Below are positions 2,731-40,618 of a stretch of DNA of 64,000 nucleotides, piece by piece. The notes below the pieces were generated by a model, which saw nothing but the letters and a program-made list of their open reading frames with translations, was not told the origin of the DNA and did no database searches. Source of the DNA: Myxococcales bacterium (lineage in GTDB: Bacteria > Myxococcota_A > Polyangia > Polyangiales > Polyangiaceae); assembly GCA_903642325.1 (NCBI GenBank), contig CAHJWM010000026.1, positions 1 to 64,000 of the forward strand. The letters are read 5' to 3'. The position numbers and the translations under genes were made by a program. Within the stretch, counting starts at the first letter, position 1; each line of letters begins with the position of its first letter.

Positions 2731-4338
2731 ATGCAACTCACCACCGATTATCTGGTGCTCGGCAGCGGCATTGCCGGGCTCACTTTCGCCCTGCGTGCGG
2801 CCGAGTTCGGGGAAGTGCTGCTGGTCACCAAGCGTGAATGCGATGACGCAGCAACCAATTGGGCCCAAGGCGGCGTGGCCGCGGTGCTGGCCCCGGATGA
2901 CTCGTTCGAGAAGCACGCGGAGGACACGCGCGTCGCGGGCGCCGGGCTTTGTCATGACGTCGTCGTCGACATCTGCGTGCGTGAGGCGCCCGACAGTATC
3001 CGCTGGCTGAGCGAGATCGGTGCGCAATTTTCGCGCTCCAAGAGTGGCGAGTTCGACTTGGGGCGAGAGGCCGCTCACACCGAGCGTCGCATCGTGCACG
3101 CGGGCGATATCACCGGCCGCGAGATCCAGCGCGCCCTGCTGGAAGCCGCGCGAAGCTCGCCGAACATTCGTATCTTGGAGTGGCACATGGGCGTCGACTT
3201 GATCACCATGAGCAAGTTCGGAGGTCCCGACCAGTGCGTCGGCGCGTATATTTTGGACGAGCAAACGGGCTCCGTGCAGACCGTGCTGGCGCGCGCCACG
3301 GTACTGGCCACGGGCGGCGCCGGCAAAGTGTACGTGTACACCTCGAACCCAGACGTGGCATCGGGTGATGGTGTGGCCATGGCCTTTCGCGCGGGGGCCG
3401 AGATCGCGAATATGGAGTTTTACCAATTCCACCCGACCGTGCTGTACGAGCCCAAGGCCAAGGGCTTTTTGCTGAGTGAGGCCTTGCGCGGCGAAGGTGC
3501 GGTGCTTCGTTTGCCCGATGGCGACGCGTTCATGGGCCGTCACCATCCGCTGAAGGATCTGGCCCCGCGCGATGTCGTGGCACGCGCCATCGACTATGAG
3601 ATGAAGCGGACGGGGTCCGAGCACGTGCTGTTGGACATCACGCATCGCCCGGCCGACTTCGTGCGTTCGCGCTTTCCCAACATCTACGCCGAGATCAAAG
3701 CCTACGGCTTCGACATGACGACCACGCCCATCCCGGTGGTGCCCGCCGCGCATTACATGTGCGGTGGCATCACTTCGGATTTGCATGGCCGAAGCTCGCT
3801 ACCCGGGCTGTGGGCGCTCGGCGAAACCGCGTGCACGGGCTTGCACGGCGCCAACCGCTTGGCCTCCAACTCTTTACTCGAAGGCTTGGTGTTCGCCCGT
3901 CGTGCAGCAGATCGGCTGTCGCAGCAGGCGGCGGAGCTCCGCGCGGCACCCTGGCCTAGTGTGCCCGAGTGGCAAACCGGGTCGGCGGCCCCATCCGACG
4001 AGGCCGTGGTGGTTTCGCACAACTGGGAAGAGATCCGGCGCTTGATGTGGAACTACGTCGGGATCGTGCGCAGTGACGCGCGCTTGCGGCGCGCCTCGCG
4101 TCGCATTGCGCTGCTTGAAGAAGAGATCCGCGAGTATTACTGGAAGCACCTATTGACCAGAGATTTGCTGGAGCTCCGGAATCTGGCGGACGTGGCCTCG
4201 CTGATCATCGCCTCGGCCGCCAGCCGCAAAGAAAGTCGCGGCCTGCACTTCACCATCGATCATCCGGAAACGCTCGCAAGCTGCGCGGAAGACACCGTCA
4301 CCAAGCGCGGGGTCTTGCCTCACTTGCGCGGGCGCTGA
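2731..4338 (+). CDS. nadB: L-aspartate oxidase
   Basis: NadB oxidises L-aspartate to iminoaspartate, the first step of de novo NAD synthesis; NadA then makes quinolinate. The 535-aa protein opens with the FAD dinucleotide fold G-S-G-I-A-G-L. It carries N-W-A-Q-G-G-V-A, which is diagnostic for NadB/succinate dehydrogenase flavoproteins, then H-T-E-R-R-I-V-H-A-G-D and the late FAD motif G-A-N-R-L-A-S-N-S-L-L-E-G. The C-terminal helical domain (about residues 440-530) is present. I placed the start at ATG 2731 because it begins directly with the FAD domain and has a GGAAAA purine tract upstream; the open frame extends further left. No nadA or nadC is in the window. The stop overlaps the next start (TGATG), which suggests coupled translation. 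Confidence 0.95.
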   Translation: MQLTTDYLVLGSGIAGLTFALRAAEFGEVLLVTKRECDDAATNWAQGGVAAVLAPDDSFEKHAEDTRVAGAGLCHDVVVDICVREAPDSIRWLSEIGAQFSRSKSGEFDLGREAAHTERRIVHAGDITGREIQRALLEAARSSPNIRILEWHMGVDLITMSKFGGPDQCVGAYILDEQTGSVQTVLARATVLATGGAGKVYVYTSNPDVASGDGVAMAFRAGAEIANMEFYQFHPTVLYEPKAKGFLLSEALRGEGAVLRLPDGDAFMGRHHPLKDLAPRDVVARAIDYEMKRTGSEHVLLDITHRPADFVRSRFPNIYAEIKAYGFDMTTTPIPVVPAAHYMCGGITSDLHGRSSLPGLWALGETACTGLHGANRLASNSLLEGLVFARRAADRLSQQAAELRAAPWPSVPEWQTGSAAPSDEAVVVSHNWEEIRRLMWNYVGIVRSDARLRRASRRIALLEEEIREYYWKHLLTRDLLELRNLADVASLIIASAASRKESRGLHFTIDHPETLASCAEDTVTKRGVLPHLRGR

Positions 4339-33717: not shown

Positions 33718-36700
33718 TCAAGAACAGCCCATCGAATTGCCACAATTCAGGCACTTGTAGCAGGCGCCGTTACGCACCGTGATGTGCCCGCAGCCGTCAC
33801 ACACCGGCGCGTCGCCCATCATCTCTTCCAGTTGGGCGTCCAGCGCGCCGTGCGCTTCCGCGCCGGGATGGCTGGCCGCGGCAGCCGACGGGGATGGCGG
33901 CAATAGGCTCGCGCTGGGCGGCTCGGCTGGCACGTGCTTGGGCTGCGTCGGATCCTCGATCGCGACGTCGTCCTCCGCCGGCTTCACTTGCGCGAAATCA
34001 TACCGCTTGAGGTACTCCACGCCGATCACTCGGAAGATGTAATCCACGATCGAGGTCGAGAATTTGATGTTGGCGTGACCAGATACCACGCCATGTGGCT
34101 CGAAGCGGGTGAACGTGAACTGCTCCACGTACGTCGCGAGGGGCACGCCGTACTGAAGACCGACGGACACGGCCATCGCGAAGCAATTCATCAGCGAGCG
34201 GAAGGCGGCGCCCTCTTTGTGCATGTCGATGAAGATCTCGCCGAGCGAGCCATCCGCGTACTCGCCCGTGCGCAAAAATACCTTGTGCCCGCCGACATGC
34301 GCCTCTTGGGTGAAGCCATGCCGCTTCTTGGGCAGACGGACGCGCGTGCCTTCGGGGCGCACCGCACGAGCCAGTGCTTGCGCCGCCGCCTGCACCACCG
34401 GTGCCAGCGCTTCAACCGCTGTTTTGCTGTCTTCCGAGCTCGAGGTGAGCGGTTGGGAAGCCTTGCACCCGTCGCGATATAGCGCCACGGCTTTGAGCCC
34501 GAGCTTCCAGCTCTCTTCGTAGATTTGGCGCACGTCCTCGACCGTTGCCTCATTCGGCAGATTCACGGTCTTACTGATCGCGCCGGACAAGAACGGCTGG
34601 GCGGCGGCCATCATCTTCACGTGCGCCATGGGCGCAAGAAAGCGTTTACCGATGCGGCCGCAGCGGTTTGCGCAATCGAACACCGCGTAGTGTTCGTCCC
34701 GCAAGTATGGGGCCCCTTCGATGGTCATGCGACCGATGATGGTCTCGTTTGCTTCTTCGATCTCTTTCTCGGAGAAGCCCAGGTACTTGAGTAAGCTAAA
34801 CCCGGGCTGGCCGATGCGCTCCGCCGTCACGCCCAGTCGCTCGTACGTGTCCCGCCCGACGACCCAGGGCGCGAACGCCAAGCTTAGATCGAACACCCCG
34901 GCCAAGGCGCCCTCGATCTTGGTCAGCTCCTCGTCCGTCAAGCCGCGCGCTTTGAGCGAAGCGCGGCTGATATGCGGAGCGCCGAGCAAGGTGTTCGTGC
35001 CCGACACATAGGCGACGATTTCGTGGATCTGAGCTTCTGAATAACGCAGGCGCTTGAGAGCCTCCGGCACGGACTGATTGACGATTTTGAAGTAGCCGCC
35101 GCCGGCGAGCTTCTTGAACTTCACGAGCGCAAAATCGGGCTCGATACCGGTCGTGTCGCAGTCCATCAAAAGGCCAATGGTGCCGGTGGGAGCGAGCACG
35201 GTGGCCTGCGCGTTGCGATAGCCGTGTTGCTCGCCCAAGCGCACCACGTTGTCCCAATCCTCCGTCGCTGCGCGGTACAGCGCCTCCGGACATTGATCGC
35301 GATTGATGGCGTAAGCGGCGTCCTGATGCATGCGCATCACACGCAGCATGGGCTCGCGGTTCTTGGCGTACCCGGCAAACGCACCCTTGGTCGCGGCGAT
35401 TTCCGCGCTAGCCACGAACGCGTGACCGCACAGAATGGCGGTGAGGGCCCCTGCGATACTCCGCCCCTTGTCCGAATCATACGGAATGCCGAGCAGCATG
35501 AGCACCGTCCCTAAATTCGCGTAACCCAAGCCCAGCGGGCGGAAATCGTGCGAATTTTTGGCGATGCGATCGGTCGGGTAGCTCGACAGATCGACCAGGA
35601 TCTCCTGGGCCAAGAAGAACACGTCGATGGCGTGGCGGTAGCCCGCGATGTCGAAGGTGCCCTGTTCATCGAGGAACTTGGTCAAATTCAGGGACGATAG
35701 ATTGCAGGCCGTGTCATCCAAGAACATGTACTCGGAGCACGGGTTCGAGGCGTTGATTTTGCCGGTGTTCGAGCAGGTGTGCCAGCGATTGATGGTGGTG
35801 TCGTACTGCACGCCCGGGTCCGCGCAGGACCACGCCGCCTCGGCCACCGTGTTCCACAGATCCGCGGCATCGAGCGTGTCGATCACCGCGCCCGTCGTGC
35901 GCGCGCGGGTTTGCCATTTGCCGCCGGCCAGGGCGGCCTTCATGAAATCGTCGGTGACGCGGATGGAGTTGTTCGAGTTCTGACCGCTGACGGTGTGATA
36001 GGCCTCACCGTTGAAGTCGCTCTCGTAGCCCGCGGCGATCAGCGCCTTGGCCTTCTTTTCCTCGCGCACTTTCCAAGTCACGAAGCTCTCGATCTCGGGA
36101 TGATCCATGTCCAGGCAGACCATTTTGGCCGCGCGGCGAGTGGTGCCGCCGCTCTTGGTCGCGCCCGCCGCGCGATCCAACACCTCCAAAAAGCTCATCA
36201 AACCGCTAGATGTGCCGCCGCCCGAGAGCTTCTCCTGCTTGCCGCGAATATGGCTGAAATTAGAGCCCGTGCCGGAGCCGTACTTGAAGAGCCGCGCCTC
36301 GTTCTTGGCGAGGTCGTAGATGGCCATCAGGTCGTCGTCGACCGACTGAATGAAACAGGCCGAGCACTGCGGGCGGGCGTAAGCGTTCGCGGTCTCTTCG
36401 CACTTCTGCGCGGCTTCACTCCAAGCCCAGTTGCCGCCGGAACCTTCGATGCCGTATTCGTGGAACAGGCCGCAGTTGAACCAAACGGGGGAGTTGAACG
36501 CGCCATACTGATTGGCGAGCATCCAAACGAGCTCAGCCTCGAAGGTGTCCGCGTCCTTCTTGGACGCGAAGTAGCCGCCGGACGCTTCGCCCGCGGTGCG
36601 GATGGTGTGCGCGATGCGGTGCACGACCTGACGCACGCTGGTTTCGCCTTGGGCCTTGTCGCCATGCAAGCCAGCTTTGCGAAAATATTTGGAGACGACG

Positions 36701-36996
36701 ATGTCGGTCGCGAGCTGTGACCAAGCCGCCGGGATCTCCGCGCCTTCCATCTTGAAGACGACGGAGCCGTCCGGGTTGGTGATGACGCTGGTCCGCCCTT
36801 CCCAGGTCATATCGCCGAGCGCGTCGCCGCCCGTGGTCGTGTAGCGACGTTCGAAAGTCATGCCGCGGGTCTTCTTGGCCCGCCTACCGTGCGGAGCTGC
36901 CCCGGGCTGCGTCCCCGCAGGGGAGGGCTCGGTGTGGCTCGTGCTCGCGCTCTTCACTCGGCTATTTTCCTGACCCACGATCGTCGATTGCGCCAT
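33718..36996 (-). CDS. nrdJ: Vitamin B12-dependent ribonucleotide reductase (class II)
   Basis: NrdJ reduces ribonucleotides to deoxyribonucleotides using adenosylcobalamin, with or without oxygen. The 1092-aa protein has P-Q-C-S-A-C-F with an active-site Cys, [17 protein letters not shown] and [12 protein letters not shown], which are typical of class II enzymes. The C-terminal ~30 residues form a zinc ribbon (C-D-G-C-G-H ... C-L-N-C). This C-terminal domain may regulate or re-reduce the active site. ATG 36996 has a near-perfect GAGGAGGT ribosome site (37003-37010); codons upstream of it (from 37035) are not part of the protein. No class I nrdAB is seen in the window. The 563-bp upstream region is described separately. 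Confidence 0.96.
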
Positions 36997-37223: not shown

Positions 37224-37241
37224 TTCCCGCATTGGCGGGAA
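37224..37241 (-). promoter_or_regulatory. Hairpin in the nrdJ leader region
   Basis: A perfect 7-bp stem with loop ATTG/CAAT (TTCCCGC / GCGGGAA) lies 230 bp upstream of the nrdJ start. It would be transcribed only if the start point is further upstream. It may be part of a structured RNA leader. Confidence 0.35.
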
Positions 37242-37449
37242 GGATCAGCGTACCCCAAGCCTTTGGGCTCGAGCAAGTAAAAACCACTAGGTATTGGGCG
37301 TGGGCGAGCCCAGAAGGTGAGCCGCGGATGAGATCCACAAGCTTAAATGTACGTCACCCAAGGGCTTTTTCTACTGAACAAAAATCGCTGAACAGGTCGA
37401 CCCCAAGCGCGTCACGGGTGCTGAACGGGTTGTCCCCGGCGCGTCCACA

Positions 37450-37477
37450 GGGTTATCCACAGGTTTGTGGATAACCC
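37450..37477. promoter_or_regulatory. Two inverted consensus DnaA boxes upstream of nrdJ
   Basis: The 28-bp element is GGGTTATCCACA-GGTT-TGTGGATAACCC, a perfect 12-bp inverted repeat. Each arm contains TTATCCACA, the strict DnaA-box consensus (37453-37461 plus; 37466-37474 minus). A third, 7-of-9 match (GCGTCCACA) lies immediately to the left at 37441-37449. DnaA binding here would be 455 bp upstream of nrdJ and about 80 bp after the M16 gene. DnaA is known to regulate ribonucleotide reductase genes in other bacteria. Confidence 0.7.
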
Positions 37478-37478
37478 A

Positions 37479-37496
37479 ACCATCAGGGTTGATGGT
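37479..37496. repeat. Second hairpin beside the DnaA-box pair
   Basis: ACCATCA-GGGT-TGATGGT is a perfect 7-bp stem, placed two bases after the DnaA element. It has no T-run, so it is not a standard terminator for the M16 operon that ends at 37560. Confidence 0.4.
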
Positions 37497-37559
37497 CGCG
37501 ATTCGGCCAGATCCGCGGCCCAGCCTTCGGCGTCGCTACCGATTCCTGCTTCCAGCCGA

Positions 37560-39212
37560 TCAGCGCGGATGAGGGGTCGTCTCCGGAACGGACCGGGCGG
37601 CGGACGCGGGCGGTGGTGCCGCTGGGCGCGGTTCGGGCGTCGCTTCCAAGCCTTGACTCGAATCCATCGGCAGCTCTTTGCCAGGTTGAAAATCGCGTTC
37701 CGGATCGATGATCACGACCTTGGCGAAATGAGACAGTGGCAGGGCGATGCGTGCTGCGTCGCCTGCAACGACGATCACCGGATTTTTCAGGCTGAAGTAG
37801 TGCCGGGCGGCGTCGTACACGGCCGCATTGTCGAGCTTACGCAGTGCGTGCCGATAGTCGTCGAAGTAATCGTCTGGCAGGCCCAGTACGGCGAGCTTCA
37901 CGGTCAGGTCGGCGACGGCAGCGAGCGTTTCGGTGCGAAACAAAAAGCTGTCGGATAGGTAGCGAGAGGCCATGCCGACTTCTGCGTCGGTGGGCGGCGC
38001 GCTCGAAAGCTTTGCGAGATTCTCTAGAAGCGCTTGCAGGGCGAGCCCGGTCTTTGCCGTCTGCGTACCGGCGGAGAGGACAATCGGCACCGGGCTGTGA
38101 GCGGGCTCTTCGACGCTGGAGCTCGTGCCGTAAGCGAGTGATCGTTTCTCGCGCACGTCGAGGAACAAGCGGCCCGCCACTCCGCCGCCCAAGATTTGAT
38201 TGCTGGCGGCTAGCGCCGGCCACACCGGGCTCGAGCGCTCGGGTCCGAGCCCAGCCACGTAAAGCTGGCTCTGCGCGGCATGCGGACGATCGACGAGCCA
38301 CACGATGTGTTGATCGGATGGCACGGGCGCGTTGAACACTTGGCCGCTCGGCTTCTCGCCCTTCCAGCTCGAAAATACGCGCTTGGCGGCGGCCTCCGCT
38401 AGCGCCGGCTCGACGTCGCCCGCGATCACGAGCGATGCGTTCTTGGGCGTGACGTTGGCCTGGTACCAGCGCTTGCAGTCGGCGAGGCTCAGTTTCGCCA
38501 GATCGGATGGTTTCGCGTCGTAACGCGAGTACGGGTGCACGGCGGTGGGCAGGTCGAACAGCTCACGATACAGCACCATGGACGCGGCCCAGCCCGCGCT
38601 CGCTTTGGCCGCATTCCGCACCCGCTCGAGCTCACGCTGCTTGAGCTTGTCGAACTCTACCGGTTGAAAACGAGGTTTTTGCGCGACGGCCCCCAATAGG
38701 TCGAGCGCCGCGTCCAGGTCGGCGGTGGTGACGGCAATGGAGATGCGGGTGGCGTCGCGCTCCGTACTGACGTTTAGGCTCGCTCCCAAAGATTCCGCGC
38801 GCTCGGCAAGTTCTGCCGCATTCCACGGGCCAGCGCCGCCTGCCTTCAGCAGCTCGCCTGCGACCGAGGCCACGCCCGGTTCTGAGCCGTCGCTTGCGAC
38901 GCCGGAGAAGATCACCAAGCGCAACTCGATAATCGGGTAATTTTTGCGCGGCACGACGCGCAGCTCGAGGCCATTGTCGAGCCGGCTGTGGCTGATGCTC
39001 GGGAACGGCTTGTCTGCGGCGACCCCCGCGGGCGGCGGAATGCTCAGCGGATCCGCGGGGGGCGGGAGGGCGCCACGCGCCATGGCCGCGGTCTTGGCGA
39101 GCGGCACACGAGTGGGCAAATGGTGCGTCGCGCAAGCGACCGCGATCCAGGGCAGCGCCCCGATGAACGCGCGCGGCGAGAACGATCGACGAGAGCGTGA
39201 TGATGAGCTCAC
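37560..39212 (-). CDS. M16 family peptidase, non-catalytic partner subunit (lipoprotein-like)
   Basis: M16 zinc peptidases often work as pairs: one subunit holds the HxxEH zinc site and the other the R...Y substrate-binding residues. This 550-aa protein lacks HxxEH in its first domain (the aligned segment reads I-F-S-G-V-A-S-D-G-S) but has the R...Y pair in R-E-K-R-S-L-A-Y-G. The N-terminus is a secretion signal with possible lipobox (I-A-V-A-C-A-T). GTG 39212 overlaps the previous stop (GTGA). The C-terminus is a Pro/Ala/Thr-rich tail of ~40 residues. It should form a heterodimer with the upstream gene product in the periplasm. Confidence 0.87.
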   Translation of the reverse strand: MSSSSRSRRSFSPRAFIGALPWIAVACATHHLPTRVPLAKTAAMARGALPPPADPLSIPPPAGVAADKPFPSISHSRLDNGLELRVVPRKNYPIIELRLVIFSGVASDGSEPGVASVAGELLKAGGAGPWNAAELAERAESLGASLNVSTERDATRISIAVTTADLDAALDLLGAVAQKPRFQPVEFDKLKQRELERVRNAAKASAGWAASMVLYRELFDLPTAVHPYSRYDAKPSDLAKLSLADCKRWYQANVTPKNASLVIAGDVEPALAEAAAKRVFSSWKGEKPSGQVFNAPVPSDQHIVWLVDRPHAAQSQLYVAGLGPERSSPVWPALAASNQILGGGVAGRLFLDVREKRSLAYGTSSSVEEPAHSPVPIVLSAGTQTAKTGLALQALLENLAKLSSAPPTDAEVGMASRYLSDSFLFRTETLAAVADLTVKLAVLGLPDDYFDDYRHALRKLDNAAVYDAARHYFSLKNPVIVVAGDAARIALPLSHFAKVVIIDPERDFQPGKELPMDSSQGLEATPEPRPAAPPPASAARSVPETTPHPR

Positions 39213-40618
39213 GGCTTGCCTCCCTTGGGCGCCGGTAAAACCTCGACGAGGGAGCGCCGCTCGGGAATCAGGTAGCGGGCGACAGCCTGCTGTACAGCCT
39301 CGGGCGTAACGGTCAAATATTGCGAAAGCTCGCGAGAAAGCCCACGTGCATCGCCCCAATAAGACTCGAACTCGCCGAGCTGTATGGCTCGGCCCAGGTT
39401 GGTCTGGAGCCCAAACACGAAGCTCGAACGCAGCTGGCGCTTGGCTTTTTCGAGCTCGGCGGGCCGGGGCGGTGCTTTCCCGAGCCGGGTGAGCTCAGCG
39501 TCGACGGCGGCTTCCACGTCTTTCAGCTGGCCCTTGTCGGTAAGGACAGCCATGACGGTGAATTGATCGGGACCGCGGTGGTCGTCGGTGCTGGCGGACA
39601 CGCGCTCGGCCACGGCGCGATCGTGGACCAGCGTCTTGTACAGCCGCGAGCTCTCCCCATCGGCCAGGATCAAGCCCGCCAGCTCGAGCGCGTAGTGCTC
39701 GGGTGTGCGCGAGGCCGGGATCAAAAAGCCAAACATGAAGCCGGGCGTGCGTGCGTTCGTGTCCTCGACCCGCTCCCGGCCGGTATTCGGCCTCTCTGGC
39801 GGCGCTGCGAAAACGCGGGCCGGAGGGTTCTTCTTTTCCGCCGGGCCGAAGTAACGCTGAACGAGCGTCATGGCGGGGTCCGTTTCGAAGTCGCCAGCAA
39901 TGGTCAGCACGGCGTTGTCGACGGCGTAATGGCGGTCGTGAAAGTCTTTCACCCAGTCGAACGCGGCCGCGTCTAGATCTGCCATCGAACCGATGGTTGG
40001 GTGCGCGTAGGGCTCGTAGCCCTTGAATACGATCTCGCCCAAGCGAAGCTCACCCGGGACATACGCCGCGTTCTGAATGCGCATGCGAAATTCTTCTTCC
40101 ACGACAGCGCGCTGATTTTCGAACGTTTCGGGGGTAACTGAAAGCCAGCGCATGCGGTCGGACTCGAGCCACAACGCGAGCTCCAGCTCATTGGCGGGCA
40201 GGACCTCGAAGTAATTGGTGCGGTCGGTGTTGGTGGTGCCGTTGAGGCTGCCACCGCGATCCGAGATCAGCTTGAAGTGCTCGCCTTTGGGCGCGTGCTT
40301 GCTGCCCTGGAACATCATGTGCTCGAACAAATGCGCGAAGCCCGTTTTGCCTTCGACCTCACTGCTCGAGCCGACACCGTAGGTTACGGACACAGCCACG
40401 GTAGGCGCCGAGTGGTCGGGGTTCATCACGACCTTCAGCCCGTTCTCGAGCGTGGCGCGCTGAATCGAAAGGCCAAAGCGCTCGAGGGATAGGACGGCCG
40501 GGTCCGGCGAAGCTGGGCTCGAGCTAGCCGCAGTCGGGCTCGCCGCGGCGTAGCTCGGCTGGGAGCCAGCGGCGGCGCTCGCCAGCAGTAGGCAAACACG
40601 AGGAGCAAACAGGCGCAT
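39209..40618 (-). CDS. M16 family zinc peptidase, catalytic subunit
   Basis: This 469-aa protein carries the inverted zinc motif H-L-F-E-H (residues ~85-90) and the distal Glu in V-V-E-E-E-F-R, so it is the active subunit. The signal peptide M-R-L-F-A-P-R-V-C-L-L-L-A-S-A-A-A ends in A-Y-A-A, pointing to the periplasm. The fold has two homologous halves, as in pitrilysin-like proteins (N-Y-F-E-V-L-P-A-N-E-L, A-G-L-I-L-A-D-G-E-S-S-R-L-Y). ATG 40618 is the start. It is translated together with the partner gene through a GTGA overlap. Confidence 0.9.
   Translation of the reverse strand: MRLFAPRVCLLLASAAAGSQPSYAAASPTAASSSPASPDPAVLSLERFGLSIQRATLENGLKVVMNPDHSAPTVAVSVTYGVGSSSEVEGKTGFAHLFEHMMFQGSKHAPKGEHFKLISDRGGSLNGTTNTDRTNYFEVLPANELELALWLESDRMRWLSVTPETFENQRAVVEEEFRMRIQNAAYVPGELRLGEIVFKGYEPYAHPTIGSMADLDAAAFDWVKDFHDRHYAVDNAVLTIAGDFETDPAMTLVQRYFGPAEKKNPPARVFAAPPERPNTGRERVEDTNARTPGFMFGFLIPASRTPEHYALELAGLILADGESSRLYKTLVHDRAVAERVSASTDDHRGPDQFTVMAVLTDKGQLKDVEAAVDAELTRLGKAPPRPAELEKAKRQLRSSFVFGLQTNLGRAIQLGEFESYWGDARGLSRELSQYLTVTPEAVQQAVARYLIPERRSLVEVLPAPKGGKP

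Follow-up and report, generated by a model that had tools for sequence, protein, structure and literature searches.

Many Polyangiaceae-like bacteria carry, upstream of the class II (B12-dependent) ribonucleotide reductase gene nrdJ, a helically phased tandem array of what their sequence identifies as degenerate DnaA boxes, separated by gaps of 2–3 bp. Here, we describe this array and its counterpart in one 64-kb window (the whole stretch of DNA that was analysed), where the tandem boxes are joined by a perfect inverted partner, and argue that the element is quite probably a part of the nrdJ control region that binds and responds to DnaA, so that replication and DNA-precursor supply would probably be linked in these bacteria too. 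This suggests a coupling between replication initiation and dNTP supply that is independent of reductase class and, as the phased array is recurrent, the idea is directly testable in cultured relatives. A search of the open-access literature, with most subscription papers lying outside it, found no report of DnaA control of a class II reductase, or of such control in myxobacteria.

A cluster of DnaA boxes upstream of nrdJ

The only two exact DnaA boxes in the window, both assigned by sequence match, are TTATCCACA at 37453–37461 on the plus strand and its inverted copy at 37466–37474 on the minus strand, which follows after 4 bp. Both are carried by a 28-bp inverted repeat, GGGTTATCCACAGGTTTGTGGATAACCC (37450–37477), which folds as a 12-bp stem. 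Three base pairs from the perfect plus-strand box is a near-consensus box, GCGTCCACA (37441–37449, plus strand), and the two together form a double box of the E. coli type, namely two near-consensus boxes in direct orientation with a 2–3 bp gap, following the published definition (PMC11317965). This double box, GCGTCCACAgggTTATCCACA, has two mismatches by TTNTCCACA scoring and is the sole one in the window with two or fewer. A further degenerate box, TTGTCCCCG (37430–37438, plus strand), lies 2 bp from GCGTCCACA, just beyond the interval 37441–37496 to which the earlier note had drawn attention, and extends the series in 11-bp phase. On the other side of the repeat, at about 37480–37497 on the minus strand, there is a second hairpin (ACCATCA...TGATGGT) that lies 3' of an M16 peptidase gene and has no U tract.

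Pattern searches of the whole genome (5.83 Mb in 140 contigs), a count that the earlier note had proposed, returned 12 exact boxes and a single exact pair, that of 37450–37477, where random placement of 12 boxes would produce about 9e-5 such pairs (exact, inverted, gap of 2–8 bp). The description in that note proved accurate, with the 28-bp repeat, the two perfect boxes 4 bp apart, the near-match and the second hairpin all found as placed; its further statements that the site lies upstream of a class II nrdJ and far from dnaA also hold, Pfam confirming the reductase, whose start is about 457–478 bp from the inverted pair, and dnaA being on a different contig.

The nrdJ control region and its surroundings

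The reductase gene occupies 33718–36996 on the minus strand, with its ATG at 36996 and GAGGAGGT 6 bp before it. Its upstream neighbour on the same strand is an M16 peptidase-like gene (37560–39359; Pfam). Closer to the start than the DnaA boxes are two NrdR-type boxes on the minus strand, the first with the core CAATACCTAG (37287–37296), in which C and G are 9 bp apart, and the second with the core CAAAGGCTTG (37256–37265), 31 bp from the first and inside the sequence CCCAAN4TTGGGGTA. That sequence occurs once per genome in six of eight genomes of the genus, each time upstream of nrdJ. Both spacings, 9 bp from C to G within a box and 31 bp from one box to the next, are those published for NrdR boxes (PMC9110341). 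The palindromic cores, both upstream of a ribonucleotide reductase gene, are separated by about three helical turns, and the genome also carries nrdR. Both boxes share the core CWA-N4-TWG and lack the AT-rich flanks of the consensus acaCwAtATaTwGtg (PMC4009431), the operators as a whole (37253–37298) being GC-rich (CCCAA-N4-TTGGGG), unlike that AT-rich sequence. Between the NrdR-type boxes and nrdJ, a hairpin at 37224–37241 on the minus strand was flagged by a terminator scan in which 0.5 would be expected by chance, and no Rfam riboswitch was found at nrdJ at E values up to 1.

A GTTCAG-N8-GTTCAG direct repeat (37374–37393, minus strand) lies between the DnaA boxes and the operators. Across the genus it is kept ahead of nrdJ, and GTTCAG pairs elsewhere in the genus are scattered matches. 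An alignment of about 70 upstream regions shows degenerate CTGTGGA repeats followed by GTTCAG repeats, the two palindromes and then nrdJ, and in some relatives inverted GTTCAG copies, CTGAACAA, stand in 11-bp phase with DnaA-like boxes. We considered the repeats as LexA sites and rejected this, since, judged by eye, the left half of the 17-bp Myxococcus xanthus site, CTRHAMRYBYGTTCAGS (PMC9705874), is missing.

Besides nrdJ, the genome's second reductase gene is of class I and nrdA-like (L312, G000:C40:13500-19500); in front of it Rfam places a cobalamin riboswitch (88 bits, 3539–3768 in that stretch, minus strand), and no double box was found at this gene in the stretch examined. The riboswitch suggests a B12-dependent switch between the two reductases. 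With B12 present, nrdJ would plausibly be the main reductase, and its control would then be the more consequential.

A phased tandem array in relatives

Exact boxes proved a poor yardstick of conservation, failing already within the genus, where among the members compared only this genome has the exact inverted pair upstream of nrdJ; degenerate phased boxes were used instead. The comparison covered the nrdJ upstream regions of about 70 Polyangiaceae-like relatives, Minicystis rosea included. A clear NrdR-type pair is present at 29 loci, and the 300-bp stretches that precede it contain 29 DnaA-like boxes, spread over 17 of these loci, against 4.3 +/- 2.0 (maximum 11) in 200 dinucleotide shuffles, and 27 of the 29 boxes point the same way. 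The enrichment is confined to this stretch, the counts being at or near background both in the 300 bp downstream of the NrdR-type pair (4 boxes against 3.7 shuffled) and farther upstream (5 against 2.6). Spacings between boxes on the same strand peak at 11 bp (17 against 0.05), 12 bp (7), 21–23 bp (15) and 32–34 bp (10), and are nearly empty between these values.

Counting as a double box any two boxes spaced 11 or 12 bp that together deviate at no more than 3 of 16 positions, we find double boxes in 28 of 69 loci of the family, representing 20 genera (0.35 in shuffles, maximum 3), and in 6 of 27 loci of other families, compared with 0.2 shuffled; nearly all point the same way. The boxes lie in the gene's own control region and are conserved with it, though at this threshold the remaining 41 family loci have no double box, nor do three of the seven genus members with nrdJ (L022–L024). 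In density, 43 double boxes in 68 kb of nrdJ upstream DNA compare with 3 in 800 kb of background from two relatives, a difference of about 170-fold. Two loci (L025 and L026) have no M16 match upstream of nrdJ and keep their double boxes, so the array travels with nrdJ. Both the use of TTNTCCACA with one mismatch and that of 11- and 12-bp doubles were chosen after the alignment and with PMC11317965 in hand and hence not blind, and because motif, thresholds and anchor were picked after inspection and the genomes are related, these statistics overstate significance; the enrichment is large even so.

The inverted partner was tried as the conserved core and set aside. An inverted box was sought beside each of 100 tandem doubles. 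With up to 2 mismatches, a 4-bp gap yields 2 such boxes, the window locus included, and gaps of 5 and 6 bp yield none, where 0.26 would be expected per gap; with up to 3 mismatches, a 3-bp gap shows a weak excess, 7 boxes against 1.8. As the partner shows no clear excess at 4–6 bp gaps, we take the tandem array to be the conserved part. The earlier note had put the inverted pair forward as the key feature, and here it has to be corrected, the pair being missing in most relatives while the tandem 11/12-bp arrangement persists. Its proposal that DnaA ties dNTP supply to replication gains from the enrichment of phased arrays upstream of nrdJ in the family, but loses the inverted pair as its core.

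Inverted pairs across the order

Exact inverted pairs are rare across the order: 7 of 183 genomes have one, and the reversed pattern used as a control matches none. Two are at nrdJ and two at dnaA, the latter by Pfam, and three are placed at rRNA operons by indirect means. The second nrdJ case, in a relative from another genus (G133), again has the exact pair upstream of the gene, joined by a third box in tandem; its contig breaks off early in nrdJ, about 1.2 kb downstream from the two boxes. The pairs of G135, G140 and G170 are at contig ends and adjoin TCCTTGAAAACTGA, a motif that stands ahead of 16S rRNA in the genome of the window. No rRNA genes were found directly on the contigs of the other exact pairs, which end first; from the shared TCCTTGAAAACTGA, these three pairs most likely belong to rRNA-operon leaders. 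The exact pairs that this motif places beside a 16S rRNA leader (L017, L018 and L020) come from two genera, g1 and g48, and weak Pfam matches put a PPIC-type rotamase gene near those of L018 and L020.

A relaxed pair, with one free base per box and a 3–4 bp gap, is found in 32 of the 183 genomes (reversed control 0), and in 18 of these 32 it lies 67–427 bp from a dnaA match. In this genome, too, dnaA has a pair of the same geometry, CTATCCACAGACCTGTGGATAAG, just 5' of its start, and its DnaA carries the helix-turn-helix signature NRDHTTV. Other degenerate inverted pairs lie elsewhere: in G073 (L178, G073:C80, near 1501) an SMC/RecN-type reading frame has one, TTTTCCACAGGCCTGTGGAGAA, close to its 5' end, and the identical sequence is found on the other strand in G072, also of genus g8; six genomes of genus g43 (L192–L197) have such pairs, adjoined in L194 and L197 by a radical SAM gene, and pairs also occur in genus g6 and family f12, the flanks in g43 and g6 being partly annotated by Pfam. 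The earlier note had held that its reading would be refuted if this repeat turned up in numerous unrelated intergenic regions. In the order-wide survey, exact pairs are divided between nrdJ, dnaA and the presumed rRNA operons, and degenerate ones are mostly at dnaA.

Alternative explanations

In the window, the succession of box, 3 bp, box, 4 bp and inverted box comes near the order of E. coli DARS1 and DARS2, and the element could be a DARS-like reactivation or titration site that adjoins nrdJ by chance, at which head-to-head DnaA drives ADP release or DnaA is stored. We regard this as possible but rather improbable, and less likely than a module of nrdJ, given that the inverted partner is not conserved in relatives and that the array which is conserved is positioned relative to nrdJ's own operators; of the reactivation site suggested earlier, what stands is the DARS-like geometry in this one genome, without clear conservation. 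Four clustered boxes could also mark oriC or a secondary origin at nrdJ, and a distance of only about 104 kb separates nrdJ from dnaA in Minicystis rosea (G130). An origin is nevertheless extremely unlikely. The distance between nrdJ and dnaA varies among genomes, dnaA of this genome has its own pair, and in the window A+T reaches at most 56 percent per 50 bp of the intergenic DNA sampled, with no AT-rich unwinding region next to the boxes. Sparse 20-kb sampling of two long-contig relatives, moreover, puts nrdJ off the GC-skew switch, at 8.60 Mb in a negative-skew stretch in G144 and at 1.84 Mb in a positive one in G148.

Two further readings leave DnaA out. With two strong adjoining hairpins past the M16 stop codon and a fold z-score of -3.0, the inverted repeat might be an RNA hairpin of the M16 peptidase gene, a terminator or processing site, in which the boxes are incidental; yet a perfect inverted repeat folds by construction, there is no U tract, the terminator scan reports nothing at the pair, dnaA too has similar pairs nearby, and what relatives keep is the phased direct repeats rather than the inverted partner, all of which makes this very unlikely. 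The identity of the sites rests on the consensus, so a different regulator with a DnaA-box-like CTGTGGA-repeat site might bind the array, perhaps in keeping with the adjoining GTTCAG repeats, some of whose inverted copies are in 11-bp phase in relatives. To this we likewise give very little credence, as perfect TTATCCACA pairs are present both here and in G133, the same geometry is found at dnaA, and gaps of 2–3 bp fit the known cooperativity of DnaA (PMC11317965, PMC8682772).

A model for nrdJ control

If the element is a DnaA-responsive module of nrdJ, the three tandem boxes, one perfect and two degenerate with 2- and 3-bp gaps, would together with the perfect inverted box make up a cooperative landing site for DnaA, about 130–180 bp upstream of the NrdR-type operator pair, which itself probably overlaps the putative nrdJ promoter. 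DnaA would nucleate on the perfect boxes and, as ATP-DnaA builds up, spread head-to-tail over the phased degenerate boxes, tuning nrdJ transcription to replication initiation, with NrdR expected to repress the gene at high dATP. As to the sign of the response, we favour activation at low DnaA occupancy, which is a guess made because the sites precede the operators rather than overlapping them. A wider scheme, in which DnaA directly controls dnaA, nrdJ and, in some lineages, rRNA operons and the SMC/RecN-type gene through paired or phased boxes, such that initiator activity sets dNTP supply by the B12-dependent enzyme, is tentative and on balance doubtful.

Comparison with known systems

Control of nrd genes by DnaA is known or proposed in E. 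coli, Bacillus subtilis and Caulobacter, the nrdAB operon of E. coli being activated by DnaA-ADP or low DnaA-ATP and repressed by high DnaA-ATP (PMC8203912). ChIP-seq shows that E. coli DnaA prefers box pairs with 2–3 bp gaps, including those at nrdA and nrdD (PMC11317965), and low-affinity boxes at 2–3 bp intervals favour head-to-tail DnaA assembly (PMC8682772). Applied to published E. coli sites, the detector used here recovers nrdA, DARS1 and DARS2, the nrdA double box, TTATCCACAaagTTATGCACT, having two mismatches by the same scoring. The likeness to nrdAB, where the double DnaA box is bound in ChIP-seq (PMC11317965) and lies upstream of a reductase operon that also has NrdR boxes, is one of site content. 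The differences are that the gene here is the class II nrdJ, that there are more boxes, among them an inverted perfect one, and that the array is well upstream of the putative operators. For the operators themselves, the closest parallel is the box pair of Streptomyces coelicolor nrdRJ, with its 9-bp C–G spacing and 31 bp between boxes (PMC9110341), whereas the GC-rich flanks of the putative operators depart from published NrdR box pairs (PMC4009431).

DARS1 and DARS2, with their opposing boxes I and II (PMC8682772), both carry two boxes in tandem with a 3-bp gap and, 5 bp further on, an inverted box. The window has the same tandem arrangement with its 3-bp gap, but here the inverted box follows after 4 bp rather than 5 and is not clearly conserved in relatives. 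The pairs near dnaA in Polyangiaceae-like genomes resemble the window's pair in being head-to-head with a 3–4 bp gap, and in 18 genomes their distance to the dnaA match is 67–427 bp; at nrdJ, by contrast, the conserved part is the tandem array and not the pair.
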